A DNA stretch of 22,168 nucleotides, from contig JALLAP010000064.1 of NCBI GenBank assembly GCA_036939355.1, positions 1 through 22,168 on the forward strand, written 5' to 3'. Source of the stretch: Thalassiosira profunda (Eukaryota; Bacillariophyta; Thalassiosirophyceae; Thalassiosirales; Thalassiosiraceae). Of the stretch, positions 1,958 through 20,787 are shown piece by piece. Under the pieces are notes generated by a model. That model was not told the DNA's origin. It searched no databases and saw only the letters and a list, made by a program, of their open reading frames with translations. Both the position numbers and the translations under genes were made by a program. Every line of letters starts with the position of its first letter. Position 1 is the stretch's first letter.

Positions 1958-3472
1958 CGTCTCTCGACGAAACGAACCTCGACGTGAACGAACCTTCACG
2001 CCAGCGTTGCAATAGAGTTAATGCTGAGCTGCGCGCCCATTGACTCGACGCTTGGCTTCCCCACGCGCAGAGTGGAGGAGCAGCCGCGCGCGGCGAGGAG
2101 TTGGACGGCTGGCAAGCAGACGCGGTGAACACGCACTTCCGCCCCAAAGATTCAAGCCGCTGTGGTTGTGACAGGCGTCAGCGCTTCAAGTTGAGGTGCA
2201 AATACAGCCGTCTGACCTACGTCCCTGTCTCCGTATGTACTTACCAAAGTATCGGTAGAGCAGGCGCTCCGATGAAAGAGAAACAGCGAGAGGAGCCCGG
2301 AAGCAATCGCAGCAAGGATGCGGTTGGGATGATCCATCGCCTAGGCTCTCGTCTGTCGCATTCTCTCTCTGGCGGGTTCACGAAGCAATCACAGCCACAG
2401 CTCATGGAGGGGTCCCCTTCTAAGTACAAGCCTCTACTTGACACAAAAGATGCTCCGAGTGAGCCTGAGTATGTGCTCACTGTAGATCGTGCTCTTGTCC
2501 AAGCACCTGATACGTTGCTGATACCGTTAGCAATGAAACGCATGCGTCCACGAGCGACCGCCACTTTCTTGTGCGTGGCAGTAAGAGGTGTGGGTTCCTC
2601 TCGTATTGGTGTTGCCCCGGGTGTTCTCCTCGGTGCCCGCTTGTCTGGTGCCAAAACCCCTAACCTTGCCACGGAAGAAGCGAGCGGCTCGGACGTACGC
2701 GCATGCCCACGCGAGGCGCGGACGAATACCAACGCCTCGTCGATAATTCTTCAGTTGCAGTTGCAATGAATTAGGGCATCCAAAAGAGACGATGTGTGTT
2801 CTCTGCCAGAGCGGACTGCAATGCTGTGCTACTGCCCTCTCAAAGGCACGTCGCCGCACGCCAGAATGTCGCTGGGGCAGAGAAGGAGGGAGGTCGCAAA
2901 AGCCCGACGAGCGGCCGCCGCCAACCGCGCTCATATCTGCGGCGGAGTGTATTCCGAGACGGCCATCGTTCGATCTCATTTTTTTGCAGCTCGCTGACCG
3001 TTCGCCGCCGCGTCCTATTCGACCGATGCCACCACCTGAGGGCGCCAGCCCTGCGCCGCCGCTGTTGCTGTGCGTCTGTGGCGCTTCTTCCTCGGGCAGC
3101 CGCCACTTTGTTGTTGCTCGGGAAATCGGAGCTTTGTTTGACCGAGAGCGGAGAAATGACAAGAAGGAGGGCGCTCGCTCGGATTGGGGGCAGCAAAGAT
3201 ATCCTTCGCAGAGAATCATCTCCTCCTCGCGCGCTCCTACACTCATCACTCCTCCTCACTCCGCCACGCCCCGCCTCCCGTGGCCTGGCGCCTCGGCCGT
3301 CCGCTCCAGCCTAAGCGGCAGGCGACCAATATCGCTGGGGAGCTGCCGGCGACGCTGCGCGGGGCGAGCGATAGCTCCTGAACCTCTGCGTCCGATTGGG
3401 AGGTAGGGCGCCAACCTCGCTGAGTGAAACACACAAGCAATTTGTGCACATCTTGTGTGCAAAGAAAAGAAG
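1958..3472. other. Divergent intergenic region, no recognised gene
   Basis: About 1.5 kb lies between the leftward reductase and the rightward lipase. Several overlapping frames of 140-240 codons are open on both strands (2101-2769 +, 2527-3249 -, 2792-3406 +). None shows a recognisable domain or clean start context, and they overlap one another, as expected in GC-rich non-coding DNA. It presumably holds the promoters of both neighbours. The stretch 2780-3420 could include unannotated 5' exons, but I cannot support any. Confidence 0.4.
3443..3457 (+). repeat. TGTGCACATCTTGTG motif, copy 1 (lipase 5' leader)
   Basis: A 15-mer with a palindromic GTGCAC core, 16 nt upstream of the lipase ATG. 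Exact copies occur at 4096-4110 (+) and 21804-21790 (-), all in the sense direction of the local gene. Related GTGCAC sites lie in first introns of the secreted genes (about 15854 and 22099). Confidence 0.6.
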
Positions 3473-4129
3473 ATGGCGGCGGCGCCGCCCACCCTCTTCG
3501 ACGAGGCCCGCGACCTGCTCGTCTTCGCGTGCGCGACGCACTTCCTTGGTCGTATGCGGCTGGTGGCCCGCGAGGAGTCTGCAGACGCCAGCACCAACCA
3601 CAACCGCGCCTTCCCCGCGGCCACGGCGGCCACCCTCCTCGCCACGCCCATCGCGCCCCGCCAGATCGCCGACGCCATCGACGCCCGGGCCGAGGGCGCC
3701 GTGCCCTTCCTCGACGACGAGGCCGACTTTGGACGGGGGCGCTGGGCCGACGTCAACGCGCGCATGCTCCGGGATCCTCCGCCCTCGTGGGAAATCATTG
3801 AATTTGGCGACGAGCGATCGGACAAGGAGCTGGTGTACGCCATTGCAATTGACGACGCGAAGAAGAGGGTGGTTGTGGGATTTCGCGCCAGCGTCACCTC
3901 CAAGGATTGGCGGGTGAATCTCAACATGGTCTACGGACCCAAAACAAATCCGATATGCGGGATGGAGCTCGGGGAAACATCGATTGAGCAACCGAAGAAG
4001 CTCGTAATGCATCGCGGCTTCAGGGACTATCTGTTCCAAAAGCGTTCGAGACTGCGCGTTAATCCGCCTCAGGCTCATCAATCTATGAGTACAGCTGTGC
4101 ACATCTTGTGTTCGACGAGAAAGTCGTAA
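3473..4129 (+). CDS. Class 3 lipase, N-terminal part (gene interrupted)
   Basis: The ATG at 3473 sits in a good eukaryotic context (aagATGg) and is preferred over an in-frame ATG at 3455. The product begins MAAAPPTLFDEARDLLVFA. It contains VVVGFRASVTSKDWRVNLN, the class 3 lipase strand/oxyanion region (usual form VxAFRGT.S..DW), and VMHRGFRDYLFQK, the conserved H-x-G-F-x-x-Y-L-F segment before the nucleophile elbow. About 28 residues later the frame stops at 4127, before any GxSxG motif. That motif, with the rest of the fold, appears in the matching order at 11076-11805. The missing loop should be only 10 to 40 residues, so the gene is split by about 7 kb. A GTAAGT at 4126 overlaps the stop and could be a splice donor joining phase-correctly to an acceptor at 11075, giving a protein of about 460 aa. 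Whether it is intact through a giant intron or broken is unresolved. Confidence 0.8.
   Translation: MAAAPPTLFDEARDLLVFACATHFLGRMRLVAREESADASTNHNRAFPAATAATLLATPIAPRQIADAIDARAEGAVPFLDDEADFGRGRWADVNARMLRDPPPSWEIIEFGDERSDKELVYAIAIDDAKKRVVVGFRASVTSKDWRVNLNMVYGPKTNPICGMELGETSIEQPKKLVMHRGFRDYLFQKRSRLRVNPPQAHQSMSTAVHILCSTRKS
4096..4110 (+). repeat. TGTGCACATCTTGTG motif, copy 2 (lipase break)
   Basis: An exact copy of the 15-mer at 3443-3457, located about 15 nt before the end of the lipase N-terminal frame, where similarity to lipases has already faded. Confidence 0.6.
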
Positions 4130-4215
4130 GTAGGTATGTATCTCTCCTGGTGGTACATACATAAGATTTGTACGTAGTACCTTGTGGTAGGTACCTAAGA
4201 GGTATGAGTAGGGGC
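4126..4215. repeat. AT-rich segment with short inverted repeats at the left lipase break
   Basis: Directly after the end of the lipase frame, composition shifts from GC-rich coding to a stretch rich in GTA, TAC and GGTA. GTATGTA (from about 4135) is followed after a short loop by TACATAC. GGTAC and GTACC words recur several times up to about 4195. Such hairpin-prone sequence is seen at ends of some transposable elements, but no matching copy is visible at the right break. Confidence 0.4.
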
Positions 4216-4334
4216 GTATGCCATGATCGCTGCGCACTTGTGTTGGTTCATTATGTAATATGCACTTGATTGAATTGAATGCAAACAACATCGACACGTC
4301 TCCTTCTGCAGGCTTCTTCGCCTCGTCGGAAGAA

Positions 4335-7001
4335 CTAAACTTCAAAAACTTCAACGCCTTCCGGCATCTTCCCACGGCCCGGAGGAACAGCGTCGGCGTC
4401 GGGGGCCTCGCAAGACAGGAGGTTGTCCGTCTCTTCCCCCAAATCTTCATCGCTCGCCACCTCCTCTTCCTCCGCCGCAGACTTTTTTGCCTTTTTTGCC
4501 TTCCTTCCGGACTAGATGGAAAACCGTGAGAGGGACTTCATGTCAAGAAGCAGCAATGGTTCAGATCAGCTCCGCCTTACCATTTTGTACCACTTGTCTC
4601 TGACTGAAGCATACGACCGTCCGGGAAAATGCTTGGCGATCTCTGTCCACTGGCTCCCTAGCTCCCTATGCTTCTCCCGGAGCAGTGTCTCATCGCCCGC
4701 ATCCCATCTATTGTTCGCGCCCTGCTTCTCCCCTTCGACAGACTTGGCAGAAATCATGAGAGGCATCACGTCGCGAAGCAAAAAATGGTTCAGATCAGCC
4801 CATCTTACCATCCCTTCACACTTCTGTCTGACCGAATGAGACGACCGTCCGGGAAAATGCTTGGCGATCTCTGTCCACTGGTTCCCTAGCTCCTTATGCT
4901 TCTCCCGGAGCAGTGTCTCCTCGACCGCATCCCATCTCTTGTTCGCGCTCTTTTTCGGAGGCTCCCCTCTCTCTTTCTGCCTCCTTTTCTTCTCCCAGTC
5001 CGTTTTAGGATAAAGCTGGTCCCAGTTGCTAAAGAGCGGTGAGTGCGATCGTCAATTGCATGCACTCATGCTCACACACCTTACTTACTCAGGAAACTCG
5101 GCTCCATTTTCCCTGTGCGGCTTGACTTTGGAGGACCAGAACTCCTTCTCCTCATTTAGACTCCGGAAAGGGAGGAAGCCATTGTCTATCCACTTCTGCT
5201 TCAGCGCACGTCGGCCCTCGCCCTCGCCGGCAGCCTTTCCTTGGCGTCCGCCCGCCCAAAGCAAAACACCTTTCGTGCGATGATAGGGCAAATACGTCCT
5301 CTCCGCCACCTCCCAAATCCGGAGGTACTCGCAAGGCGTGTATTGCACTCCATTCTCTGGTGGAGGTGGAAGCACCCCCGTGGTCCGGAAGAATCCAATT
5401 TCATCCAGGAGCTTGATCCTGCGCTCGTCTTCCTCGTTCGTCTCTCCAGACTCCTTCAGCGGCCCTAGTCGTCTGAGATTCTCGTCACACCACGAATGAA
5501 GAGATTTGTTTGTTCCTGACTGCGGGCGTGGGTGGCCGTTGACCCTGACAAACGCGACAAGAACTTGATATGTTCTGTCCCATTGGTCGCGGAAATGATC
5601 CCACACGAAACCCATCGAGCTCAGCCGAGCCTTTTGTCCGTCTGACAGTTTGACGCCGCCATGCCCCCCCTGCCGGACATTGCTGACCCAACGTCCCAAC
5701 GAAGACTGTTTTTGAAGAGGCATCTGTTGCTCATGCTCGTCCATGTATGTCTTGAGCTGCGCGATTCTATCCTCGAAGGTGAATTGATTCGGATCATTGG
5801 ATTCGTCGTGCAGGCCAGCAATGAACTCGCTCGCGCCGGCCCCCCCGTATTTGTCCGCGACGTTTCGATCCCTCATTCGTTCCAAGAGGCCCTCCCCTTC
5901 TCTCTGGAGGAAGCCCTCCGAGTCCGTCAACATTTCAGGGATATCTGCGTCGTGCGGTTTGGCCCCGGTGTCGCCATCCGATTTGGGCTCCAGCTGATTC
6001 CGGAAGAGGTCCAGCGTGCTCTCCCGGAAGCGATCGTTTGGCTCGACTCCCAAAAGGCTGCAGGCGTTAGCCATCGTATCCATCGCACCGGCCAACGATG
6101 CACCGCTCCTCGTGGCCGACGTGGCATCGCTCCTCGAGGCCGACGACGGACCGCTCCTCCTGGACGACAAGGCGCCCCTCCTCGTACTGGCCGACCCACT
6201 GCTCGTCGCTCTGTTGTTGTCGATGGGCGGGAGCATTCCCGGGGGCGGGAACATTCCGGGAGGCAATGCTGGGTGGCCGTTTGAGCGGGGATCTCCTGCC
6301 CTCGCCCTTTTGGCAGAAGAAGGCGAGGCAGATTCATCACTGGCTGGCCTCTTTTTGGTCGTAGGACGCGCGTTCGCCACGTTGCTCGGCGAGGCACCGC
6401 TCCTTGAGGCACCCCACCTCGAGGGGCCGCTCCTCGAGGGACCACTTCTCGAGCCACTGTCGCTGTCGCCGTTTGGCTGGCCTCCTTCGCTACCAGCGTC
6501 GTCGCTGTCATCGCCAGACTCAGGACGTGCATCGTCGTTCCCGTCGTGGTCGTCGTTGCCACCGCCACCGCCACCGCCATCACCGCCATTCATGCCATGC
6601 CTGCGAGGGAAGCCACGTTTGACGAGAGGCATCACAGTCAGATCGCCCACGGGGGCGAGACGATTCGAACGCCTCCCAGTCACGGTCGAGTACCCGCTCG
6701 TTTCTCCGAACCACCGGACAAAAGGCGATCCATCCGACCACGAGCCTTTGTCACCGAATCCAAGACCCTGGTAAAATTTGACGGCCGGCGACGATTTATT
6801 CACCCCGAGAATCATCTTGCAGCTGCCATAACCTTCTAGTCTGTAACACGAGGCCAAAATCTGAAGCAGGGCAGTCCCCATGCCAAGTCCTGGCACCTTC
6901 GATCGCAGGAACTCGACAACTGCAGGCTGATACTCGTCCTTTCGAAACATTCCACTCTCGACAAGGCACAGCATGGCAGGGACCGTTGGCATGATGAACA
7001 T
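4335..7001 (-). CDS. GNAT-like / HA-HA / Myb-Myb nuclear protein (four exons)
   Basis: Hand-built model: exons 7001-5089, 5028-4809, 4742-4581 and 4511-4335, all on the minus strand with GT-AG introns and consistent phase; 823 aa. Residues ~33-80 carry a GNAT acetyltransferase signature (GLGMGTALL, LGVNKSSPAVKFYQGLGF), but the N-terminal half of that fold is missing. Next come a Gly/Asp/Ser/Arg-rich disordered stretch with a likely bipartite nuclear signal (~216-235), then two helicase-associated (HA) domains, ~407-468 (ending LSSMGFVWD) and ~472-540. Two near-identical Myb/SANT repeats follow (~668-707 and ~722-763; RWDA, LREKH, WTEIAKHFPGRS). It ends in a Lys- then Glu-rich tail. It is probably a DNA-binding nuclear protein. 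Exon 3 with its intron is a tandem duplicate of exon 2's Myb part; that 66-nt intron is stop-free and could be retained. The GNAT start is uncertain: a good acceptor (ctttcag) near 7010 hints at an upstream exon. Acetyltransferase activity is not assured. Confidence 0.72.
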
Positions 7002-7171
7002 GCACGCTGAAAGCACATCGCAACATCCGTTCCTCTCAAGACTACGGCGATTGGCTGCGCCACCACCAGCACGAATCGAACCCCAAGCTTGCTCCCATTA
7101 TGGTTCTCGAGCTTCACTTGCAGGGGCGTGTAACTTTGTATGTCAAGTTGGCCGAAGTGTGCGTTCAGTTG

Positions 7172-9495
7172 TTATTCCCACTCCGGCATTGATTTGGCTT
7201 TGTCGTATTCCAACAGGAATACACGAGCGTGTTTGTCGCCGGCGAGATCGACCTTCTGCCTGATATCCTCCTCCAATGTTGCAGAGCAGAAAAGGTCCTC
7301 CAACTTCATGTGAACGCATCCCTCGACGCCACCGATGATGCTATTCGTTTCATCAACGCCATGTCTCAGCATGCGACATAGAGGTGCTACCGACGAGAGA
7401 ACGCCCCATTCATCGTCGGCGATCATTTCCACCACTCCACCGCCGCATTTGCTCGCCCCATACGGAGCAATGTCACGATTTGCTGCAATGATTTCCCTCA
7501 CCAACTCAGGGGTTGCACGATCCAAAGGGACAAAGTTCTCCTTCTCGATATCGTGCCCCAGTAGATCAGTGACAGCGACAACGGCAGACTTGTCTGAACT
7601 CTCCTCGCCTGCATCTGGCTGCGATCCGCATGGCAACTCCCCATCTGCGCCCCCTTCCTTCCTACCGTCCTCGAAGGCGCCCGCACCGTTCTTCCTCTCT
7701 TGCGACAGATCCACCGTTCCATCCATGATGGCGAGTAGTTTGGGATCCGTTCCCTCCCGCGGGGGGCTCGCCGCCGCGGTGCCGCGCGCCGCCGTCGCCG
7801 CGGGGGCCGACCCGCGCGATCCGCCTTTGCCCGCGCCGCTCGCTCCGCGGGCGCTGCCGGCACCGCTGCGCGCCGATTCGGCCTTGTCGGCCAGCGGCGG
7901 GGGGCGCGGAAGATTCGTTCTCTTCGGCGCCGGGAGGGGCGGGCGCTGGTGCGTCGCGGGCGGCGACGCAGTTGACGTTGGCGGCGAGGGCTCCGCGGCC
8001 GGTGGCTGCGCAGGAGGCCCGGTCGGCGCCGATAGCTGCGGCGCCGGGCACCGTCCCACCTCCGTGGCCGTCGGCCCTCCCGTCGGCGGGACGGCCGGAA
8101 TGGCAGCCCGATTGGAATGGCTCCCCCGCGCCGCGATGTGCGCGCGGCGTCCACCTCCTGTGGCAGCCCGATCATTGCTGGCCTCCCCGGGGACGACGGT
8201 GGCAACCTCGGCCCGAGCGGCGTTTTGGAACGAGCGCGGGTCACGCACGGCCTTTTCCAGCGCGCTCGGCCGGTGGGACAGTTGGCGCCTCGGTTCGGGC
8301 CTCGTCGGTCGCTGCGGCGGTTGCGAGAACGCTCGCTCGGCCGTGGGAGGCTGTTGCTGCGGTGAGGACGGTCTATCAGTTCCCGGCCGACCCTGGACGT
8401 GCGGCGGGGGAGCAGGACCTGGCCACATCCCTGCAAAGGCCGGAGGAGCAGGACATGGCCGCATCCCCGCCACAGCCGGTGATGCCTTCCCTGCTTCTAC
8501 GCCCCCCGCCGCGCTGTGTAGCACTGTCCTGGCCTCCGTTTGCTGCTCCCCGACGTTGCATACAGAAATGAGGTCAGCATGTGACAGAATAACGAACGAT
8601 TGAGGTGCAGCAAACTCACCTCTTGCGCATCAACAAATTGACTCCTCCATCGACGCATCCCCGCCAGCACCCCCACGGCCTGTTCCTCCCTCTTGTCGGT
8701 GGCCATCGGTTGGGCAGCGCTCCCCGCCGTGCCCTCCTTGTCCTCGCCCTCCTCGTCCCCCGCCGCGGCGTTGCGTGCACTAACGTCCGCGTCGAGGCTT
8801 TTCTCATTGCTCAACGTTTCCGGCGAAACCATTCCACTGTCAGCGTTTGTCTGACCATCCCCTGCTCGGGGGACGTTTACATCCTCGGCATTCCCCCCGT
8901 GCTGCTCGATGTTGTCGCCACGCGCCGCCCCCAAAGGGATGTTCTCCTCCATCGCCTTCAACTCTTTGTCGCCACCAGCTATCACTCCCCTCATCCTATC
9001 ACTACCGGCTTTGTATTCCTCCACAACTTCACCCCACTTTCCTTCATCTATCTCCTTCTCATCAAAAAGAGCGCTCAAACGTCCCTTGAGGCTAGCAAGA
9101 TTCCCATTGAGTTCGGCACATTTGCTCTGGAGGCTGGCTTCCTCCCGCCGGAGACGGGCCATCTCGTCTCGCCCCCCACCGTCCCGGACTAGATCCAAAA
9201 ACGCCGAATTTGATTGCGTGATCCCGTTTTGGAGCTCAACCAGCTCACCCTGGAGACGTTCTGACCGCCCAAGCACGCCCTTGATATCCTCGTCGACCCT
9301 CTGCATTTTGGAATTGTGTTCTCTCCGCCCATGATCGAATTCAGCCAACAACCGGGCCAGCTGTTGTTTGTAAATACCATCTTGCGCGCGGAGTGTATCC
9401 CGCCTCGCAGTAGACTCTGGAGACAATTGCACCGCCGTCCCTGTCGCCCCCGCTACCCCCGAGTTGCGAGATTCACGAGCAGGAGAGGTCGACAT
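7172..9495 (-). CDS. Large coiled-coil, disordered protein of unknown function (two exons)
   Basis: Exon 1 is 9495-8620. It ends GAG before GTGAGT (8619), and exon 2 is 8545 (or 8542)-7172, entered in phase 0 after an AG acceptor. Spliced product is about 749 aa. The first ATG is 9495. Residues ~30-185 are strongly heptad-like (KQQLARLLAEFDHGRREHN, RLRREEASLQSKCAELNG), predicting a long coiled coil. A long acidic and then Pro/Ala/Arg-rich low-complexity middle follows. The last ~120 residues look ordered (RATPELVREIIAANRD, DDEWGVLSSVAPLCRML, ARVFLLEYDKA), but I do not recognise a family. Coiled coil plus disorder suggests a scaffold or partner protein. It lies just upstream (155-170 bp) of, and parallel to, the GNAT-HA-Myb gene, and diverges from the Spo11-like gene. 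Long open frames on the opposite strand (for example 7335-8603) are composition artefacts of GC-rich codons. Confidence 0.68.
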
Positions 9496-9843
9496 GATGC
9501 CCAATACCGAAAGGTGTGGGCAGAGGGCGGAGGGCGGAGGGCTGGAGGGCGTGTGGTGGTGGTGCAGATTTCCACTGCCGGTGAGATAAAATTGCAGACC
9601 GCCTCCTATGCGGTCTGAAAATATTGCGGGAAGACGCCGCCGCCGTATCTATGGCCGGTGTTGCCGTGGCCTCCGTGAGGGAGCGTGCGCCGCCGCGGAT
9701 AGGGAGCTGCGGCCGCCGCGGAGATGTCAGCCGAGCCAGGCTTTTATCTAGCTGGTACTTACTGGTACTTTCGTATCTACCTCGGGAAAAGCCGACTGGA
9801 AACTAGCCTCGCCGTGCGCGAGCCAGCACAAAGCACCCTCGTC
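9496..9843. promoter_or_regulatory. Divergent promoter region between coiled-coil and Spo11-like genes
   Basis: About 350 bp separates the two divergent starts. It contains short purine repeats (GGGCGGA-type units, about 9520-9550), an AT-rich patch (gataaaattg, about 9584-9593), a perfect 8-bp inverted repeat at 9595-9617, and an imperfect tandem CTGGTACTTA/CTGGTACTTT near 9750-9770. If translation instead starts at the upstream ATG (9724), part of this region is coding for 40 extra residues. Confidence 0.45.
9595..9617. repeat. Perfect inverted repeat (8-bp arms, 7-nt loop)
   Basis: CAGACCGC at 9595-9602 is mirrored by GCGGTCTG at 9610-9617 around a 7-nt spacer. It lies between two divergent genes, next to an AT-rich patch. 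It could be a protein-binding palindrome; it lacks the T-tract of a bacterial terminator. Confidence 0.6.
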
Positions 9844-10995
9844 ATGGCGGCCCAACTCGTCAACATCTCCCCCTACCGGCCGCCCGCCCTCGACTATCGC
9901 CCCGACGTCGCCATCGCGCGGATCGAGGCGACGCTCGCGTCCGCCTACGACAGCTTCCGCAATCGCGGCGTCCGTCATTTTCAATATCATGGGACGACCG
10001 AGGTCTACCGCGCGACGCCGAGGGGATTCAAGAAGCTGTTCTTCATCATGAACACCGCGCACAAACTCCTGATCGCGAACACTACAATGCTGAGCGGGGA
10101 CGAGGACGAGGACGAGGCGACGACGATCAAGCAGAACTCGGCCAAGTATCTGTTTGATAATTTATTCCATCGCGGCGACAAAAAGAACAGCTCGTTCCAT
10201 GAATACTTTCGCACGGCGGCTGATCTCTGCGACCTTCCGAGGCGGGCCTTTGCATTCACGACGAAAGCTACGGCCCTTGCGACGGGCGAATTCACTATCA
10301 AGTGGATTCGCCGCGACGGAGACCCGGACTTCATGGAGGACGGTGAGGTGGTGGACACGGAGAAAATGCCGAACAGCCACCGCCAGTTCCACATCGAGGA
10401 CGAGTGGCTGTGCCGGCTGCTGAACATTTGCGATTACAACACGGATATTGAGTTTATTTCTGATGCCACGTCGATGTTGCTCGTCGAGAAGGAGGGCGTG
10501 TACAATTGGTTGGTCCAGTACGGTTTCTACCGGAAGCACAACTGCATCCTCGTTTGCCTGCACGGCTTTGCTGACTTGAACACGATCGGATTCGTTCAAT
10601 ACGTCCAGAACAAGCTGAAGATCCCCGCGTTTGGCCTCTCGGACCTGAACCCGAGTGGAATGCAGCTTTTGCACTCGTGCTATTTCGCAGAATGCAGGAG
10701 CCGACCGGAGCGGCACCTCCGGGTGCCCGTCATCAATCTTGGGATGCGCCCGTCTTCACCGCCACCGGGCACGGTCCCACGAAGTGATCTGAACGAAAAA
10801 GACAAGGCAACGATTCGATTCCTTCTGAGCGACCGGAGCAAGTTCCTTGAGTACGGCGACCCGAGCCTGAGACACGGCGAGCTGTTATTCTGGGGGCACA
10901 TCAATGCGAAAGTCGACCTGGAGCTCTGGGGATACCACCGTCTCATGAGTCACGTCGATGTGCTGTACGCAGACCGCCAGAATAAGGGCATCTAG
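9844..10995 (+). CDS. Spo11 / topoisomerase VI subunit A-like protein
   Basis: 383 aa from the ATG at 9844 (an in-frame ATG at 9724 would add 40 residues unlike the family). Spo11/TopoVIA enzymes cut duplex DNA through a tyrosine in a winged-helix domain plus a metal-binding Toprim domain, and Spo11 starts meiotic recombination. Here KYLFDNLFHRGDKK (101-114) aligns with the Spo11 active-site helix, placing Tyr102 at the catalytic tyrosine with the same spacing to the following Phe. FTTKATALATGEF (138-150) matches the L-x-x-x-x-S-x-K-G-L-x-x-G strand. The Toprim part has MLLVEKEGVYNWLV (211-224; Glu215), GFADLNTIGF (241-250) and GLSDLNPSGMQLL (264-276). The second acidic residue of the usual DxDPxG is Asn269, so metal binding may be altered. 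It is intronless, unlike its two neighbours, and sits at the right edge of the block interrupting the lipase. Family is well supported; a meiotic role is not implied. Confidence 0.82.
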   Translation: MAAQLVNISPYRPPALDYRPDVAIARIEATLASAYDSFRNRGVRHFQYHGTTEVYRATPRGFKKLFFIMNTAHKLLIANTTMLSGDEDEDEATTIKQNSAKYLFDNLFHRGDKKNSSFHEYFRTAADLCDLPRRAFAFTTKATALATGEFTIKWIRRDGDPDFMEDGEVVDTEKMPNSHRQFHIEDEWLCRLLNICDYNTDIEFISDATSMLLVEKEGVYNWLVQYGFYRKHNCILVCLHGFADLNTIGFVQYVQNKLKIPAFGLSDLNPSGMQLLHSCYFAECRSRPERHLRVPVINLGMRPSSPPPGTVPRSDLNEKDKATIRFLLSDRSKFLEYGDPSLRHGELLFWGHINAKVDLELWGYHRLMSHVDVLYADRQNKGI

Positions 10996-11013
10996 GAAAG
11001 TTGCGCTGCCTAG

Positions 11014-11805
11014 GGCGGAGAGGTGGGGGACAGCGATGACGAGGACAGCGACGACGACGACACCTTTCCTTGCAGCTCCGATTGCAAAACGACGACCAAA
11101 ATCCAAAGCATCCTCCAGAATGTTGCAAAAGTCCTCGACGAACGGCCGGGATACTCCCTCTACACAACGGGCTACAGCCTCGGCGCCGCCCTCGCTACCA
11201 TCTTCGCCTTCTACGCCGCCGCGTCGGACGATCCGCGCCTCCCCAAACCCGTCACGTGCATCACCATCGGATCGCCAAAGTGTGGAACACTCTCCTTTAG
11301 AAAGGCCGTTGCTGCATTGGAATTGGCGGGGCGCCTGCGCTGCCTCCGACTGGTCAACGAGTATGATCCCATCAAAGAGGCGCCGCTCAAGAGCCTCGAT
11401 TCGCGGATGGCCCTCGTGACCGGGTCGGACTACCGCCACGTCGGGATGGCGCTGCACCTCGGCCGAGACGAGACGTACGGCTTTTCCTATCCCAAAGTAT
11501 CGCCGAGCTACCGCAGGCTCGTGCAGGACGATTGGCTCCGGCAGCGCGTCCTGTGCCGGGACGGGTGCCTCGTCTGCTGGGACCACCTGCGGTGCCGGGC
11601 GGCGCCCTCGGAAATCGGGGATCATCACGGCTACGCGGAGTACCTGCATCGATTGGAAGCCAATCGGGAGGAACTGCAAAAGCGTGACCTCGACGAGCTG
11701 TACCGCGAGGCGCGGGAAGGATCGGTGCCCTGGCCGTGCGCGTTCCCGTGGTGCTGTCCGCCGTCCGAGCCTGTCGGGGGAGAGTTGCGGCTGCACTACT
11801 ACTAA
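11014..11805 (+). CDS. Class 3 lipase, C-terminal part with catalytic triad
   Basis: An open frame runs from 11014 to the TAA at 11803-11805; a TAG lies just upstream at 11011. It starts with an acidic loop (GDSDDEDSDDDD), then KIQSILQNVAKVL, the nucleophile elbow YTTGYSLGAALATIF (GxSxG), IGSPKCGTLSF, RLVNEYDPIKEAP (likely acid Asp) and YRHVGMALHLG (likely catalytic His). These are the standard class 3 lipase blocks downstream of the H-x-G-F segment found at 4015-4050, in the right order and strand. A CAG acceptor preceded by ctttcctt ends at 11075, in phase with a donor at 4126. The tail is basic and Cys/Trp-rich (FPWCCPP). No ATG precedes the conserved region, so alone it would probably not be expressed correctly. 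Two further partial copies of its 3' end occur at 16009 and 20582. Confidence 0.8.
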   Translation, partial: GGEVGDSDDEDSDDDDTFPCSSDCKTTTKIQSILQNVAKVLDERPGYSLYTTGYSLGAALATIFAFYAAASDDPRLPKPVTCITIGSPKCGTLSFRKAVAALELAGRLRCLRLVNEYDPIKEAPLKSLDSRMALVTGSDYRHVGMALHLGRDETYGFSYPKVSPSYRRLVQDDWLRQRVLCRDGCLVCWDHLRCRAAPSEIGDHHGYAEYLHRLEANREELQKRDLDELYREAREGSVPWPCAFPWCCPPSEPVGGELRLHYY

Positions 11806-11860
11806 AAGTCTCTCTATTTTCACATTATAGTTTCCCTAATCTTTCACAATCGCTCAGCGC

Positions 11861-13630
11861 CTAAACACTGCACATCATCATGCCACGCAGCACATTGGTC
11901 GCCGTGGCCGAAACGAGGGATCCATAGCTGATATCCTCTCCGTCAAATCCTCCACCGTTCGCACAAACCTGAGCATCCACATCATCGTAAGCGTAAATCT
12001 TCCTCCAACTCTCGGCCAGGCTGCCATCCACAGATCCGAAGCGACGCCGGAACGCGCCTTCCAGCTGGGCCTCGCTCAGGACGTTCCGCTTCACGGCATC
12101 GCACGCATCCGCGTCCACGCTGCACACCCAACGGAAGGTGCGCCAGGCCAACGCGGCATGACCGCCCTCTTCCATCGCAATCGTGTGCAGCTCCGTCCGA
12201 ATCCACTCGAGGGTTTCTCCGTCGACGCCGTAGTATTTGTTTCCCTCTTTGGCACCGTTCGCCAGCACGGCATCGAGGACATCGACCTCCGCGGCGGCCT
12301 CCAACGCCGAGAGCGTCTCGTCGACGCATCCCTCCCGCGCCACCGCTATGGCCAGTGCCATCAAGTCGCTACCAAACTCATGCGTGGAGGCAGGCAACGG
12401 GCCCGGCCCGACCGTCCTCCCCAGCAATTGGGAGGCAATGGCAAACGACGTCGCGGCGTGACGGACCTCGTCCAATGCCGCCTCAAGAGCATCCTGCACC
12501 AAGTCGACGGGGGCGCCGTTGGTCATGAGCGCAATGGCAAAGGCCGCGAAGGAGGCCACCGAGGCGTGCTCTCCCAGGGCGCTCGTCGTCCACGCCTCCC
12601 CGAGGGCGATCTGGTTGGGGTGGACGGTGCGGTTGCCCTCGGACACCGGGCGAGATTCTTCCAACTCTAGTCCATCGGCTCCGAACCCCGCGTCGATATC
12701 TCCCGCACGAAGGGGCACCACGACCGGAGACGCCCGGAGCGTCCGGCCGGTGGCGTCGACGAACGGCCGTCCCTCGATGGCCCGGGAGCACACCCAGGAA
12801 TCCTCGTCGGCGTCCAGGCGCGGGACCTCCATCGCTCCGGCGTCCACCGCCGTCGGGGGTCCGATGAAGACGATCTCAGCGGCGTAGTCGGTGGCGCAGT
12901 CGTTGGTGGCGCTGGGGCCGGAGCGGACGTTGATGGGCTCGCCGTCGAACGATCGCACTTTTGGGGCGGTGACGTTGGCGCCGTGCTCGCATCCGTTGAG
13001 CATGACCTCGACGTTGACCGTGCAAACGTTTTGGTTCGAGGATCGGACGGTCGTTGCTTCCTCGTCGTCGCGCTCGGGCTGCTCCGGCGTCCTCCCGAGC
13101 GCCCTCCACAGCGCGGACTTCAACGAGAAGACGCCGTCCTCGAGGCGCGCGGCATCCTCGTCTTCTTCTGGGACGGGCGAGGGAGGGTACGTCCGGTCCT
13201 TCATGGCCTCGCACCAGTAGCTGGTGTAGGACCACGACGCGTTGTACGAGCTGGGCGGCAGGAAAGTCATGAAATTGGGATCGAGCACGCCCTCGACGGA
13301 GACGTCGAGAGAATCTTCGCCCCAGGCGACCCGGGGCACGAAGGTGGTGGCGTCGCAATCACTGATAATGGCGAGGTATGCCTCGTTCCCGGGCACGGGC
13401 TGCTCGCCGTACATGAACTGATCGTCGTTGTACATGAGCATCGTGACGGGCACGTTGCTGGTGATGGCGAGGCCTTGACGATGGTAGGAGCCGATGGCGG
13501 AGGAGGAATCTTCGTGGAGGATGTAAGTGCCGGGGGCGGCGACGGCCTCGATGTCTCGGGCATGGACGGCCCGCGGCCCGCTGCCAGCGACTAGCACGGC
13601 GATGGCGACGGCTGCGTTGTAAAGTTGCAT
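11861..13630 (-). CDS. Secreted ferritin-like di-iron domain protein, copy A
   Basis: 589 aa. The ATG at 13630 is chosen because the paralogue starts at the same place (its frame cannot extend in the same way) and because MQLYNAAVAIAVLVAGSG forms a signal peptide cleaved near AVHA. The N-terminal ~300 residues form an unrecognised Cys-containing region (GTYILHEDSSSAIGS, NDDQFMYGEQP, FLPPSSYNASW). Then comes GRPFVDATGRTLRA (287-300), a feature I recall preceding similar domains in myxobacterial proteins. Residues ~345-510 form a four-helix ferritin-like domain with ligands E354 (LGEHASVASF), E388-x-x-H391 (LDEVRHAATSF), E433 (REGCVDET) and E488-x-x-H491 (EEGGHAALAW), that is E, ExxH, E, ExxH. 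This predicts a di-iron or other two-metal site outside the cytosol; the reaction is unknown. It ends 55 bp from the convergent lipase stop. Confidence 0.78.
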   Translation of the reverse strand: MQLYNAAVAIAVLVAGSGPRAVHARDIEAVAAPGTYILHEDSSSAIGSYHRQGLAITSNVPVTMLMYNDDQFMYGEQPVPGNEAYLAIISDCDATTFVPRVAWGEDSLDVSVEGVLDPNFMTFLPPSSYNASWSYTSYWCEAMKDRTYPPSPVPEEDEDAARLEDGVFSLKSALWRALGRTPEQPERDDEEATTVRSSNQNVCTVNVEVMLNGCEHGANVTAPKVRSFDGEPINVRSGPSATNDCATDYAAEIVFIGPPTAVDAGAMEVPRLDADEDSWVCSRAIEGRPFVDATGRTLRASPVVVPLRAGDIDAGFGADGLELEESRPVSEGNRTVHPNQIALGEAWTTSALGEHASVASFAAFAIALMTNGAPVDLVQDALEAALDEVRHAATSFAIASQLLGRTVGPGPLPASTHEFGSDLMALAIAVAREGCVDETLSALEAAAEVDVLDAVLANGAKEGNKYYGVDGETLEWIRTELHTIAMEEGGHAALAWRTFRWVCSVDADACDAVKRNVLSEAQLEGAFRRRFGSVDGSLAESWRKIYAYDDVDAQVCANGGGFDGEDISYGSLVSATATNVLRGMMMCSV

Positions 13631-14127
13631 CGTCGCAAGTAGCTGAATGAGAGTTGCTGGCGGTTTGCAGAGCGCTGGGGTGTTGCCGAAATGAGAGGGC
13701 TGCAGATCAGAGGCGCTGAGAGGCGTGGCAGAGGCGTTAGGAAGGTACGCGAGGTGCAGCAGTGTTGTGTTGTCGAACAATGAGCGCATCGACTGGCTTG
13801 TTCGCTGGGTGCTCTTGGTCGGTGCTCTTCGACACGCGTCCGTCCTCAAGATCTCTTTGTGTCAATGAAATTGTACTTAGGAATAGTAGGACTCAAAAGA
13901 TACCTTTTCAAGTCTCCTAGCATCTTCCTGCATGCTCCGGCTCCGGCTGCTCTCTCCTCCCTCGGCTCCCACGCTCGCTCAGTCTAGTACATAACTTCTT
14001 GCCGATCCTGCATGCCTTCTTGGGCGACGACGACGCGATCGTGCTTCTTCCTGCCCGTTTCATATCTTCGGGTTGATGCTCTTCTATTGGCCTCCGTCGT
14101 TGATGCTCACATAATCCAAACGAAGCC
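13631..14127. promoter_or_regulatory. Bidirectional promoter, ferritin-like / Plg-R(KT)-like pair A
   Basis: About 500 bp separates the two divergent ATGs. The same region in copy B (18036-18535) keeps long conserved blocks, for example around 13688-13790 and 14010-14070, with indels between them. The two-part motif TTTGTGTCAATGAAATT ... AAAAGATACCTTT lies at 13856-13907. Confidence 0.6.
13856..13907 (+). promoter_or_regulatory. Two-part promoter motif, copy 2
   Basis: TTTGTGTCAATGAAATT (13856-13872) and AAAAGATACCTTT (13895-13907) have the same 39-nt offset as the copy at 278-329 upstream of the carboxylesterase-like gene. Here it lies 226 nt upstream of the leftward ferritin-like ATG. Confidence 0.45.
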
Positions 14128-14640
14128 ATGGGATCTGCAACCTCCAAGCCATCCAAACCCCCGCCGTCGAATCCGCTGCAAACCGTCCGGGACCGCGTCG
14201 ACGAGGAGATCGCCCGACGGATGATGATCCAGCGCGAGGTGCAACTGGCCGTCAACCTCGCGAAAGCGCGGGATACGATCCAGATCTTCGGATCCGCCTG
14301 GGCCGCCTTCGTCGGCACCGTGGGCGCGGCGGCGCTTTCGGGGAAGAAGGTCCCTCCAACGGCCGGGGTGCCCGTCGTCGTGGGCGGACTGGTGCTGGGG
14401 AACATGGCCGACCTGGCGTACGGCAACAAATTGGTGAGAGTGGCAAAGGAGGCGGAGCACATCCTCGAGAATGAAAGGGCGCGGCTGGTGCCGATGAAGC
14501 AGGCGCCGGTGCGGCGGTTTTATTCGGAGGAGGAAACGGCGGCGATGTTCGATCGGGCCACGGCCGCCGGACTGTTGTGGCCGAGCAGCGCGTTCAGTCG
14601 GTCTGCGGTTCCAAGCAAAGCGAAGGGCAGTGCGGAATGA
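14128..14640 (+). CDS. Plg-R(KT)-like small membrane protein, copy A
   Basis: 170 aa, intronless. It resembles the plasminogen-receptor Plg-R(KT) family (human C9orf46), small two-helix membrane proteins conserved across eukaryotes. Matching blocks are the charged helix REVQLAVNLAKARDTIQIFG (the family has MAMQIAWSREFLKYFG), the glycine-rich first membrane segment ending AALSGKKVPP, a second segment VPVVVGGLVLGNMADLAYGN (family: D-L-x-Y-G), and VAKEAEHILENERARL (family: GEAEDILETEKSKL). The human protein's C-terminal Lys is absent and the tail here is longer, so plasminogen binding is not implied; the original cellular role of the family is unclear. MGSATSK fits an N-myristoylation signal. 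It is divergently paired with the ferritin-like gene, so co-regulation is plausible. Confidence 0.75.
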   Translation: MGSATSKPSKPPPSNPLQTVRDRVDEEIARRMMIQREVQLAVNLAKARDTIQIFGSAWAAFVGTVGAAALSGKKVPPTAGVPVVVGGLVLGNMADLAYGNKLVRVAKEAEHILENERARLVPMKQAPVRRFYSEEETAAMFDRATAAGLLWPSSAFSRSAVPSKAKGSAE

Positions 14641-15068
14641 ATAAATGGCAGAAGGATGCTGGAAGATAGTGTTGATGTTTGTGAATTGCACTGAAAAGAC
14701 TCGCAAAGCTCGAAAGGCATTGCAAAACATGGCGCCATCTCCCCTGTCATCAGGCACGCACCTTGATGCAGCGACAATTGCAACGCCTCATGCATTTTGT
14801 GCTGTGGTCCTGATAGAGACTCCGCTGGCTGCGCATTCTTTCCCACAGTAGCACCTACGATATCGTTTGACAACTCGTATGTGTGCAGCGCCTGCCGGCG
14901 CCCGGAGTTTGGCTAGGTACAGACTCTACCTCTGATACATAGCCGTATTATTTGATTACTTCTATTCTGATTCCAAACGAGGCCCAACTATTCTTCACAT
15001 TCACCTTCGACTCTTGATCTTCTCAGACCCACACAAAGTTATTATTTTTTGAGAGCAGGAGTTTCTCC
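14641..15068. other. Convergent 3' intergenic region
   Basis: This is the 3' flank of the Plg-R(KT)-like gene; homology with copy B continues to 14855. From there to the secreted gene's stop at 15069 the DNA is AT-richer. I see no gene in it. Confidence 0.5.
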
Positions 15069-16007
15069 TCACGAGATGAGACTGGAGGTTGAGATGCTTG
15101 CGGCCAGATCGGCCACCCCCTCCTCTTCCACCGGTGCAATTGGCGCCGAACAGCTATCGCCAAGACAGAGGGAGACCGTGTACTCGTTGGACGCGCTGCC
15201 ACAGCGAAGATCATCGGCAGAGAAAGCATTGATGGAAACGAACACAACGTATTCACCGGCAGGGCGGAAGGTTGTAGCCGTGACCGTGGTCGTGGTAGGA
15301 GGATTGGTAGATTCCGCATCGAACAAAATCCTGCTACTGTCAGAGCACTCTGGTACTCCTTCGATGAACCCCACTATCACAGAAAGAGGGGCAAGAGAAG
15401 TAATCGTCGCGGTGACAGGACCGCCGAGGTGCTCGAACAAGTACCAGTCGGTGTCGCGCCGCCCACTGCCGTCAGGGGCGGTGTAGGTAGAGGTGACGCC
15501 ACAGATCGTTTCTCCGTTTTCAATCCTGCCAAAGGCGGGCGGAGACACGTTGCAGCCTCCGTTTATATCGACCGCCGGATCGAAGGGGTCGTCGCCGTCC
15601 TTGAGGCAACATTCCCCCTCAGACGTACCAACCGCACACTCGGGAATATCACAAGTGGTCGTCTGGAGTGGAGAGTCAGAGATTGAGCGATAAACGGCCT
15701 ATTGCATCTTCCGCATGGAACGAGATTGCACTCACCTTCTCCGTGGGGCTCGTCGTCGGCGAGTCGGTCGGGGCGTCGGTGACGCAGGGGATGATGGATT
15801 TGGACCTAGTCGTAGAAACAGATGGTTAGCGGCATGCGACGAAGGTTGTGAGCTGTGCACAGACGTTCAAAGACTAAACAAAATGGCGACCTTGCACTCA
15901 CGCCTTCGTGCCCGCGCCCTTCGCGCTCTTGGCCGCCTCGCCCGACTTGCTCTTGCCCGACTTGGACGGCAGGCTCATGCTGAAGCTCAGGCCGTCGGCC
16001 TTCCCGC
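15069..16007 (-). CDS. Secreted PT-linker protein with PPC-like domain, 5' truncated
   Basis: Exons 16007-15902 (5' end missing), 15805-15736 and 15662-15069, with GTGAGT donors, AG acceptors and consistent phase. Exon 1 encodes a Lys/Ser/Gly-rich stretch (SLPSKSGKSKSGEAAKSAK), common near the N-terminus of diatom secreted proteins. Exon 2 encodes SKSIIPCVTD and a PT linker (APTDSPTTSPTEK). Exon 3 has Cys-rich CDIPECAV..CC, then a β-rich domain with TDWYLFEHLGGPVTATITS and FRPAGEYVVFVS, resembling bacterial pre-peptidase C-terminal (PPC) domains, whose hallmark is DTDWY. The start codon and any signal peptide are missing because exon 1 runs into the N at 16008, where lipase-tail DNA begins. 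It was probably exported to the surface or cell wall. Domain call by eye, moderate. It shares its first exons with the gene at 21086-22168. Confidence 0.65.
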
Positions 16008-16008
16008 N
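16008..16008. other. Undetermined base (N) at a duplication junction
   Basis: A single N separates coding sequence of the secreted gene (to 16007) from the start of lipase-tail homology (16009, matching 11594). Its position exactly at the breakpoint makes a scaffolding join or misassembly a serious possibility. Confidence 0.95.
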
Positions 16009-16220
16009 GCCGGGCGGCGCCCTCGGAAATCGGGGATCATCACGGCTACGCGGAGTACCTGCACCGATTGGAAGCGAATCGGGAGGGATTGCAAAATTGC
16101 AACCTCGATGACCTGTACTGCGAGGCAAGGGAGGGAACAGTGCCCCGGCCGTGCGCGTTCCCGTGGTGCTGCCCGCCGTCCGAGCCTGTCGGGGGAGAGT
16201 TGCGGCTTCACTACTACTGA
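16009..16220 (+). pseudogene. Lipase 3' end remnant, copy B
   Basis: Homologous to 11594-11805 without indels (constant offset of 4415). In the lipase frame it encodes the last ~70 residues (SEIGDHHGYAEYLHRLEANR ... FPWCCPPSEPVG) with several substitutions and no early stop, ending in TGA instead of TAA. The catalytic triad and start are absent, so it is a truncated duplicate, or the rest was lost at the N junction. Confidence 0.8.
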
Positions 16221-16283
16221 AAGTCTCTCTATTTTCACATTGTATCTTTCCCTAATCTTTCACAATCGCTTAATGGTCAACGC

Positions 16284-18035
16284 CTAACTGCACATCATGA
16301 CGCCACGAAGGACATTTGTCGCCGTGGTCGAAACGAGGGATCCGTCGCTGATTTCCTCTCCGTCCGCTCCACTGTTCGTACAAACCTGAGCATCCACATC
16401 ATTGGAAGAGTAAATCTTCCTCCAACTCTCGGCCATGATGCCATCCACAGATCCAAAGCGACGCCGGAACGCGCCTTCCAGCTTGGCCTCGCTCAGGACG
16501 TTCTGCTTCACGGCATCGCATGCATCCGCGTCCACCCTGCACACCCAATGGAAGGTGCGCCAGGCCAACGCGGCGTGACCGCCCTCTTCCATCGCGATCG
16601 TGTGCAGCTCCTCCCGGATCCAAGCGAGCGTCGCCTCGTCGACGGCGTAGTATTTGCTTCCCTCCTCTGCACCGTTCGCCAACACAAGATCGAGGGCATC
16701 GACCTCCGCGGCGGCCTCCAACGCCGAGAGCGTCTCGTCGACGCACCCCTCCCGCGCCACCGCTATGGCCAGTGCCATCAAGTCGCTACCGAACTCGTGA
16801 TGGGAGGCTGGCAACGGGCCCGGCCCGACGTCCCGCCCCAACAGCCGGGAGGCGATGTCGAACGACGTCGCGGCGTGACGGACCTCGTCCAATGCTGCCT
16901 CAAGAGCATCCTGCACCAAGTCGCTGGGAGCTCCATTCGTCATTAGCGCGATGCTGAAGGCCGCGAAGGAGGCCACCGACGCGTGCTCTCCCAGGGCGCT
17001 CGTCGTCCACTTCTCCCCAAGGGCCAGCTGGTTGGGGTGGACGGTGCGGTTGCCCTCGAACACCGGGCGAGATTCCACCAAGTCGGCCAGTCCATCGAAT
17101 TGAGACTCCACGGCACCATCGCCCGGGCGAAGGGGCACCACCACCGGAGACGCCCGGAGCGTCCGGCCGGTGGCGTCGACGAACGGCCGTCCCTCGATGG
17201 CGCGGGAGCACACGTAAGAATCCTCATCTTCGTCCAGGCGCGGGACCTCCATCGACCCATTGTCCACCGCCGTCGGGGGTCCGATGAAAACAATCTCGGC
17301 CTCATAGTCGGTGGCGCACTCGTCGGTGGCGCTGGGACCGGAGCGGACGTTGATCGGCTCGCCGTCGAACGACCGCACCTTGGGCGCGGTGACGTTGGCG
17401 CCGTGCTCGCATCCGTTGAGCATGACCTCGACGTTGACCGTGCAAACGTTCTCGACGGTCGTCGCCTCCTCCTCGTCGCGCTCGGGCTGCTTGGGCGTCC
17501 TCCCCAGCGCCCTCCACAGCGCGGCCTTGAGCGAGAAGCCACCGCCCGTGAGGCGCGTGGTATCTTCGTCTTCTTCTGGGACGGGCGAGGGAGGGTACGT
17601 CCGATCCTTCATGGCCTCGCACCAATAACTCGTGTAGGACCAGCTTGCGTTGTACGAGCTGGGCGGGAGGAAGGTCATGTAATTGGGATCGAGCACGCCC
17701 TCGATGGAGACGTCGAGAGAATCTTCGCCCCAGGTGACCCGGGGCACGAAGGTGGTGGCGTCGCAATCGCTGATAATGGTAAGGTAGGCTTCGTTGCCGG
17801 AGACGGGCTGCTCGCCGTACATGAATTGATCATCGTTGTACTGGAACACCGACACGGGGACGTTGCTCGTGATGGCGAGGCCTTGGCGATGGTGGGAGCC
17901 GACGGCGGAGGAGGAATCTTCGTGAAGGATGTAAGTGCCGGGGGCGGCGACGGCCTCGATGTCTCGGGCATGGACGGCCCGCGGCCCGCCAGCGACTAGC
18001 AGGGCGATGGCAATGGCTGCGTTGTGAAGATGCAT
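16284..18035 (-). CDS. Secreted ferritin-like di-iron domain protein, copy B
   Basis: 583 aa from the ATG at 18035, closely similar along its full length to the 589-aa copy at 11861-13630. It has a signal peptide (MHLHNAAIAIALLVAGG, cleavage near AVHA). The unrecognised N-terminal region and the GRPFVDATGRTLRA block are kept. All predicted metal ligands are retained: LGEHASVASF, LDEVRHAATSF, REGCVDET, EEGGHAALAW. Differences concentrate in the acidic linker after SPVPEEDED, in a short deletion after EEATTV (RSSNQ missing), in the stretch after VVVPLRPGD, and at the C-terminus. Conservation of the metal site with drift in linkers suggests both copies work. It is divergent from the Plg-R(KT)-like copy B. 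Confidence 0.78.
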   Translation of the reverse strand: MHLHNAAIAIALLVAGGPRAVHARDIEAVAAPGTYILHEDSSSAVGSHHRQGLAITSNVPVSVFQYNDDQFMYGEQPVSGNEAYLTIISDCDATTFVPRVTWGEDSLDVSIEGVLDPNYMTFLPPSSYNASWSYTSYWCEAMKDRTYPPSPVPEEDEDTTRLTGGGFSLKAALWRALGRTPKQPERDEEEATTVENVCTVNVEVMLNGCEHGANVTAPKVRSFDGEPINVRSGPSATDECATDYEAEIVFIGPPTAVDNGSMEVPRLDEDEDSYVCSRAIEGRPFVDATGRTLRASPVVVPLRPGDGAVESQFDGLADLVESRPVFEGNRTVHPNQLALGEKWTTSALGEHASVASFAAFSIALMTNGAPSDLVQDALEAALDEVRHAATSFDIASRLLGRDVGPGPLPASHHEFGSDLMALAIAVAREGCVDETLSALEAAAEVDALDLVLANGAEEGSKYYAVDEATLAWIREELHTIAMEEGGHAALAWRTFHWVCRVDADACDAVKQNVLSEAKLEGAFRRRFGSVDGIMAESWRKIYSSNDVDAQVCTNSGADGEEISDGSLVSTTATNVLRGVMMCS

Positions 18036-18535
18036 CGTCGTAAGTAGCTGAATGAGAGTTGCAGGTTGCAGATCCGCTGGGTGTTGCCGAAATGAGAGGG
18101 ATGCAGATCAGAGGCGCTGAGAGGCGTGGCAGAGGCGTTCGGAAGGTACGCGAGGTGCAGCAGTGTTGTGTTGTCGAACAATGAGCGCACATCATCGACT
18201 GGCTTGTTCGCTGGGTGCTCTTGGTCGGTGCTCTTCGACACGCGTCCGTCCTCAAGTCTCTTTGTGTCAATGAAATTTGTACTTAGGAATATGTAGTTAG
18301 GACTAAAAGATACCTTTCAGCCTGCTGCGGGGCCTCCGCCCTCCGCGCTGCTCTCTCCGCCCTCTGCTCCCACGCTCGCTCAGTGACGACTTCTTGCCGA
18401 TCCTGCAAATCCTGCATGCCTTCTTCTTGGACGACGACGACGCGATCGTGCTTCTTCCTGCCCGTTTCAGATCTTCGGGTTGATGCTCACAAACTGGCCT
18501 CGTCGTTGATGCTATCACAAAGTCCAAACGAAGCC
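18036..18535. promoter_or_regulatory. Bidirectional promoter, ferritin-like / Plg-R(KT)-like pair B
   Basis: 500 bp between divergent ATGs, aligned with 13631-14127 and sharing long blocks. The two-part motif is at 18261-18317, with its spacing increased by 5 nt relative to copies 1 and 2. Local insertions and deletions differ from copy A, which gives a natural comparison for finding constrained sites. Confidence 0.6.
18261..18317 (+). promoter_or_regulatory. Two-part promoter motif, copy 3
   Basis: TTTGTGTCAATGAAATT (18261-18277) and AAAAGATACCTTT (18305-18317), offset 44 nt. It lies 226 nt upstream of the leftward ferritin-like copy B ATG. Confidence 0.45.
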
Positions 18536-19048
18536 ATGGGATCCTCTGCTTCCAAACAATCCAAACCCCCGCCGGCGAATCCGCTGCAAACCGTCCGGGA
18601 CCGCGTCGACGAGGAGATCGCCCGGCGGATGATGGTCCAGCGCGAGGTGCAACTGGCCGTCAACCTCGCCAAAGCGCGGGATACGATCCAGATCTTCGGA
18701 TCCGCATGGGCCGCCTTCGTCGGCACAGTGGGCGCGGCGGCACTTTCCGGGCGGAAGATCCCGCCGATGGCCGGGGTGCCCGTCGTCGTGGGCGGGCTGG
18801 TGCTGGGAAACATGGCCGACCTGGCGTACGGCAACAAATTGGTGCGAGTGGCGAAGGAGGCGGAGCACATCCTCGAGAACGAAAGGGCGCGGCTGGTGCC
18901 GATGAAGCAGGCGCCGGTGCGGCGGTTTTATTCGGAGGAGGAAACGGCGGCGATGTTCGATCGGGCCACGGCCGCCGGACTGTTGTGGCCGAGCAGCGCG
19001 TTCAGTCGGTCCACTGTTCCAAGCAAAGCGAAGGGCAGTGCGGAATGA
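18536..19048 (+). CDS. Plg-R(KT)-like small membrane protein, copy B
   Basis: 170 aa, the same length as copy A (14128-14640), with only a handful of substitutions, mostly in the first 35 residues, at the start of the second segment (GRKIPPMAGVP) and near the end. The start at 18536 is set by copy A and by the MGSSASK myristoylation-like N-terminus; an upstream in-frame ATG (18383) would add an unconserved leader. The two hydrophobic segments, DLAYGN and EAEHILENER blocks are identical to copy A. Strong conservation of the C-terminal half suggests purifying selection or gene conversion. Confidence 0.75.
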   Translation: MGSSASKQSKPPPANPLQTVRDRVDEEIARRMMVQREVQLAVNLAKARDTIQIFGSAWAAFVGTVGAAALSGRKIPPMAGVPVVVGGLVLGNMADLAYGNKLVRVAKEAEHILENERARLVPMKQAPVRRFYSEEETAAMFDRATAAGLLWPSSAFSRSTVPSKAKGSAE

Positions 19049-19349
19049 ATGAATGGCAGAAGGATGCTTGACTATCTTGTTTGTGAATGGAAGATGTGGA
19101 CTGAAAAGACTCGCAAAGGGCAGGGCGGGATGCATTGCAAAACATGAAACATGGCGCCAGTCCACTGTCATCAGGCACGCACCTTGATGCAGCGACATTT
19201 GCAACGCCTCATGCATCTTTTGCTTCGGCCCAGAGACTCCACTGCGCCTTCTCTCCCTGAGTAGCTCCTCCTCTCCCTTCCAAATTAGTCAGTGACGTAA
19301 AGAAAACTTGCTGACAGGACCAAGCAAGAGAGCTCTTCCTTCATTCTTC

Positions 19350-20522: not shown

Positions 20523-20671
20523 GCCTATCGACGCCGGTGCGCCGCTGCGAGGCATTGAGAGGTGAAGGTATACTGGTTCTGAAAGTGACGCCGAGCCATC
20601 GCTGGCTCGTGAGCGCGTTCTGTGCCGGGCGGCGCCCTCCGAAATCGGTAATCATCACGAATACGCGGAAT

Positions 20672-20728
20672 AACTGCGGCTGCGCTAACTGCATACTGAT
20701 ATGCTTCAAATTTACTTCACATCGATCG
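20672..20728 (+). repeat. Direct repeat, first copy, within lipase remnant C
   Basis: AACTGCGGCTGC, then GCATACTGATATGCTTCAA and a TTACTTCACATCGATCG end. The second copy is at 20788-20846 with a few changes. Both look derived from the lipase 3' end and 3' UTR (TTGCGGCTGCACTACTAC near 11785). Confidence 0.65.
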
Positions 20729-20787
20729 GGATCGGTGCCGCGGCCGTGCGTGTTCCCGTGGTGCTGTCCGCGCCTGCATTGGGGGAG

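Follow-up and report, generated by a model that had tools for sequence, protein, structure and literature searches.

A class 3 lipase gene of Thalassiosira profunda is split by about 7 kb of DNA that carries three genes

How does a single lipase gene come to lie in two pieces with three other genes between them, and could its product still be made? This question is raised by a locus of the diatom Thalassiosira profunda on contig C64 of an assembly of 21.8 Mb in 1366 contigs; the window that we analyzed is this entire contig (22,168 nt). Its flanks hold a PAPS-reductase/glutaredoxin gene and a PsbP-like gene, which mark the DNA as probably that of a photosynthetic eukaryote.

Our analysis confirmed that a class 3 lipase gene is split at this locus. 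The N-terminal half occupies 3473..4042 on the plus strand (190 codons, from the ATG at 3473 to ...HRGFRDYLFQK, with the K at 4042), while the C-terminal half, on the same strand and in the same order, occupies 11014..11805 and holds the acidic loop, the GYSLG, Asp, and His blocks, and the stop codon. The C half alone matches Pfam Lipase_3 (E 1.4e-17, 64.4 bits versus a cut-off of 22), and no Pfam family matched the N half alone. With the joined halves as query, a search of the organism's own genome gave 10 matches: the N half once and the C half once on C64, together with a tail copy at 16005-16217, and seven weaker matches elsewhere, on C58 (two), C1363, and C1290, plus three that are weaker still. 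These results, together with the related proteins described below, place the halves where the first-pass annotation had put them, with one correction. It had the C-terminal part restarting at 11076-11450; the conserved blocks do lie in the C half, but homology already resumes at 11014, and 11076 is where a predicted splice acceptor would restart the exon. After 4042, the N-half frame runs on for 28 codons without similarity to relatives and then meets a TAA at 4127-4129. The Ser, Asp, and His blocks are conserved in the C half, and the two halves would form one continuous chain only with the intervening DNA spliced out.

Related proteins allowed us to ask what this part of the lipase looks like when it is not interrupted. 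A protein search with the joined halves, scored among the 7998 candidates sharing most words with the query, returned seven relatives, the best four of which (P0003-P0006) are single predicted proteins of 475-537 aa that cover 98-99% of the joined query. All four, seen as proteins and not as DNA, are continuous through the split point of the window. The contigs that encode P0003, P0005, and P0006 (7470, 2281, and 1623 nt) are too short for a 7-kb gap in the gene; that of P0004 (12107 nt) is long enough for one. The break falls in the acidic loop of the related lipases, and the right piece of the window starts inside this loop: GGEVGDSDDEDSDDDD. The window has 28 residues between the LFQK block and the conserved KI/KF that follows, versus 34, 29, 35, and 27 in P0003-P0006. 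The first-pass annotation had given known lipases only a short loop at the split; the relatives have 27-35 residues there. Since the window falls within this range, the two halves fit together, with exact ends uncertain by a few codons. That the relatives run straight through the split supports insertion, and, as judged from these comparisons, the best explanation of the split is that a native segment bearing genes was inserted into the lipase. The insert comprises about 6,971 nt (4043..11013), its ends being taken from the protein alignment and uncertain by a few codons.

The same fit bears on a less favorable reading of the locus, in which the assembly wrongly joined an N half and a C half that belong to different loci or alleles. 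We consider such a misassembly unlikely because the halves complement each other to within the relatives' loop range, which is rarely expected of random breakpoints. Furthermore, each half occurs once in the assembly, no n lies in 2800-12500, and no detected repeat ends at 4042 or 11013. Some signs do point the other way. The assembly, in 1366 contigs, looks incomplete: the chaperonin family has 7 matches on 5 contigs, several of them partial, and a eukaryote is expected to have more members of this family. In addition, a one-base n at 16008, directly before a lipase-tail repeat, marks one uncertain join within the same repeat family.

This n belongs to a wider pattern of repeats downstream of the lipase. 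A tandem duplication of about 3.2 kb (11594-14813 and 16009-19234; 82-100% identity by block) contains the lipase tail together with a DUF2368 gene and a gene on the minus strand that matched no Pfam family, and the position of the single n just before the second lipase-tail copy suggests a scaffolding join. A third, degenerate relic of the lipase tail lies at 20611-20771, downstream of the PsbP-like gene. A 34-nt stretch upstream of the n (15896-15929) recurs with 97% identity at the right end of the contig (22135-22168); the two stretches are perhaps parts of neighboring copies of a repeated minus-strand gene.

Pfam matches and frame reading upheld the three genes annotated between the lipase halves, namely a GNAT-HA-Myb gene, a coiled-coil gene, and a Spo11-like gene. 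Two of these lie on the minus strand and one on the plus strand, all between two parts of one host gene. The GNAT-HA-Myb gene (4335..7000, minus strand), whose structure and start we read from the sequence, would have exons at about 7000-5089, 5028-4581, and 4511-4335, separated by introns at 5088-5029 (60 nt) and 4580-4512 (69 nt), and would end near 4335, after the third exon. Its HA (E 1.9e-17) and Myb (E 2.1e-22) matches are both clear, and its GNAT match is weak (18.7 bits, under the cut-off of 23.6). HA domains abound in this genome: of 236 candidates, 150 were scored, and all 150 matched. The coiled-coil and proline/alanine-rich gene (7172..9495, minus strand) reads as two exons, with an intron of 74-77 nt at about 8619-8543, and no Pfam family scored over its cut-off for this gene. 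The Spo11/topoisomerase VI subunit A-like gene (9844..10995, plus strand) is a single open frame with a Toprim domain. Its stop codon lies 18 nt upstream of the lipase restart and looks native, as the last two residues are the same as in the relative P0001.

The protein encoded by this last gene matches the TOP6A-Spo11 Toprim profile (E 6.4e-19, 69.4 bits versus a cut-off of 24.1), as do all three members of its family, and solved Topo VI-A chains match it at E 8.4e-7 to 6e-5. The cut-off of the NCBIfam Topo VI-A equivalogs is not reached (six models match, the best with 40 bits versus 531), and scores so far below the cut-offs mark the protein as a divergent relative rather than a standard Topo VI-A. 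Like Spo11 and Topo VI-A, the protein has a Toprim domain with the conserved Glu; in the second Toprim motif the family carries Asp-x-Asn (DLNPSG) in place of Asp-x-Asp. A Tyr is invariant in the three members (QNSAKY), and we take it, placing it by eye, to be at the likely position of the catalytic Tyr. Unlike in Spo11 and Topo VI-A, a winged-helix domain is not recognized by Pfam, which gave no match for an N-terminal domain of this type, and a structure predicted from the three sequences (pLDDT 45.9) was too poor to judge the winged helix. Relatives are few: a search among 5.8 billion proteins, limited to shared 5-residue words, found two, P0001 and P0002, which lie on contigs of 2205 and 2931 nt, and a profile search for wider relatives returned the same two again. 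The gene is single copy in its own assembly, in which a second, very divergent Spo11-type Toprim gene lies on C602 (L026; 35.3 bits) and a Topo VI-B transducer domain lies on C514.

With respect to the origin of the insert, its DNA (4040-9700 and 9703-11100) occurs once in the assembly except for one 65-nt match (C708:3889-3953, 85% identical to the region of the coiled-coil gene), and this incomplete-looking assembly yielded no donor copy of the segment. The insert shares a short signature with the rest of the genome. The 16-mer TGTGCACATCTTGTGT at 4096..4111 (plus strand) has 177 matches in the assembly at no more than one mismatch, versus 0 for the reversed control; it or near-copies of it occur in the window at 3443-3458, 4096-4111, and 21789-21804, and some copies in the genome stand in tandem at 11-13 nt spacing. 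Of ten loci that we inspected, two are the window itself; among the other eight, three look clearly intronic (L028, L031, and L035) and two further ones possibly so, as judged by eye. Third-position GC is 0.77 in the Spo11-like gene and 0.59-0.63 in the other two insert genes, compared with 0.79-0.82 in the lipase halves and 0.49-0.80 in three flanking frames, so composition does not mark the insert as foreign. With a host-wide 16-mer and short introns, the insert looks like native nuclear DNA. Viral or prokaryotic origin was considered for the Spo11-like protein only: scans with its alignment as query gave 102 pattern matches in viral_contigs and 119 in genome_contigs and no confirmed relative.

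An insert of native DNA could still be mobile, whether as a Helitron that captured genes or as a novel type of element that cuts by means of its own Spo11/Topo VI-A-like protein, a reading that we regard as very improbable. The genome does encode Helitron-type proteins (3 matches), and the inferred right end of the insert reads CTAG, which we take to be a Helitron-like end. Helitrons insert between A and T and have ends of the form TC...CTRR. Here, the inferred boundaries depart from this rule, with CTAG followed by G on the right and, on the left, a start after G without TC, so that the host bases at the ends are G rather than A and T; moreover, no Helitron protein was found in the five insert frames scanned. 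In favor of an element with its own nuclease, a 2-nt AG borders both inferred ends in frame, resembling the 2-nt overhangs that, according to PMC12203943, are left by Spo11/Topo VI cuts, but a match so short carries little weight. The longest candidate for a target duplication, TGCGC (5 nt), would throw the lipase out of frame. Neither terminal inverted repeats at the insert (the best ungapped match, 7.5, was equalled by 43 of 100 shuffles) nor a hairpin signal at its left margin (z -0.46) was found, and the segment is single copy as far as the assembly goes. Given that the search for transposon ends was negative, the most likely route of entry would be a double-strand break into which a fragment was captured non-homologously.

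We turn to whether the interrupted gene may still yield a lipase. A consensus 5' splice donor, GTAAGT, is predicted at 4126..4131 (plus strand), where it precedes the first in-frame stop of the N half, and a strong 3' acceptor, CACCTTTCCTTGCAG, is predicted at 11061..11075 (plus strand); its scored tract has pyrimidines at 10 of 11 positions. The two have the same phase and would join the halves in frame. In random trials drawn on 121 kb of own-genome DNA (38 loci), an in-frame pair arose by chance in 45 of 200,000 (0.0225%) with an acceptor as strong as the one observed and, with a loose acceptor, in 0.83% of 100,000. Since the test was post hoc, with its threshold taken from the observed acceptor, and the donor consensus is not universal in this genome (an intron on C811 has GTGCGA), we read it as support and not as proof. 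Two other pairings were considered by eye: joining the donor at 4126 to an acceptor that ends at 11013 breaks the frame, and GTTAAT at 4061 keeps the frame with the same acceptor but departs from the consensus. The first-pass annotation had posed insertion and nesting in a giant intron as alternatives. Both stand, insertion on the strength of P0003-P0006 and the intron as plausible from the in-frame donor and acceptor across the insert; they are compatible readings, with a giant intron plausible as a consequence of the insertion.

The state of the two halves gives a second indication. The N half is 60.0% identical to P0003 (190 aligned residues) and 58.5% to P0004, compared with 50.7% between P0003 and P0004, although that last comparison covers 219 columns, 29-31 more than those of the window, and is not quite like for like. 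The C half is 60.5% identical to P0003 and 55.8% to P0004, which share 55.6% with each other. Both halves are fully open and not accelerated relative to these proteins. Between the C-terminal 69 codons and their tandem copy at 16011-16217 there are 19 differences in 207 positions, with dN 0.052 and dS 0.266, values that leave open which of the two copies was constrained. Since neither half is farther from P0003 and P0004 than those two are from each other, and given the dN/dS of the tail, decay of the halves appears to be absent or else recent.

These observations must be weighed against a plainer outcome of the same insertion, namely that the lipase is simply broken, by a recent and perhaps heterozygous event that is tolerated because other lipase-like genes exist, and that the splice sites are a coincidence. 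This outcome is a close rival of the spliced reading, though we hold it to be somewhat less probable. It draws on the same insertion evidence, with P0003-P0006 continuous through the split; the genome offers lipase-like matches on C58 (two), C1363, and C1290 and three others that are weaker; and the relic tail at 20611-20771 suggests that local copies decay. Intron length also speaks for it. Readable introns in this genome measure 60, 69, 74-77, and about 74 nt, and one of 6,950 nt would lie far outside that range. Joining of neighboring frames gave 7 intron candidates of 44-316 nt versus 2, 1, and 1 in three controls, a weak calibration, and PF00133, a second yardstick for introns, had 4 matches. 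Conversely, open and unaccelerated halves would require the break to be recent, and an in-frame consensus splice pair is rare by chance. On these sequence grounds, we rate splicing of a giant intron somewhat above a dead lipase and place misassembly clearly below both.

We thus propose, with a probability of a little under one half (about 0.48), that a native segment was inserted and that the lipase is probably still made through a 6,950-nt intron in which three genes are nested. First, about 6,971 nt of the organism's own nuclear DNA, with its three genes, would have entered codons of the acidic loop, as homology supports. The left margin of the insert would have supplied the donor, whereas the acceptor would derive from former acidic-loop codons, the site at 11075 sitting in codons that look ancestrally coding. 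Removal of 4126-11075 would then put 28 new residues where most of the acidic loop had been, with two minus-strand genes and one plus-strand gene remaining nested within the host lipase gene. Antisense and nested transcription could interfere with transcription of the lipase. A more elaborate version, in which an intron was born in one step from a gene-bearing 6.95-kb segment with three working nested genes in a compact algal genome, the segment being a mobile unit whose own Spo11/Topo VI-A-like protein made the entry cut with a 2-nt stagger and which splices itself out of any gene it enters, appears highly improbable to us.

Nested genes are known from other genomes, an example being the three genes in an NF1 intron, and here, too, a host gene is parted by other genes, of which some are antisense. 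The present case differs in two respects. First, nothing in the related proteins points to an interruption at this place, which means that the intron would have been born together with its nested genes. Second, the readable introns of this genome are short. An origin by insertion would be an unusual variant. A further parallel, by our own comparison, is the case in PMC3443670: there, as proposed here, an exon takes up DNA that can then be spliced and that changes the coding sequence. The present insert differs in measuring about 7 kb and carrying three genes. In literature titles and the opening lines of abstracts, neither a Spo11-like mobile element nor a like case appeared, and a case of this size may be in print.

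In conclusion, this locus draws attention to a rare Spo11/Topo VI-A-like family. Should the lipase be dead, the locus would offer a fresh example of gene loss through the insertion of unique host DNA. If the splicing is real, it would document the birth of an intron and the nesting of genes in a single event, readable from sequence in a genome of short introns, and would mean that the spliceosome of such a genome copes with 7 kb that hold antisense genes.
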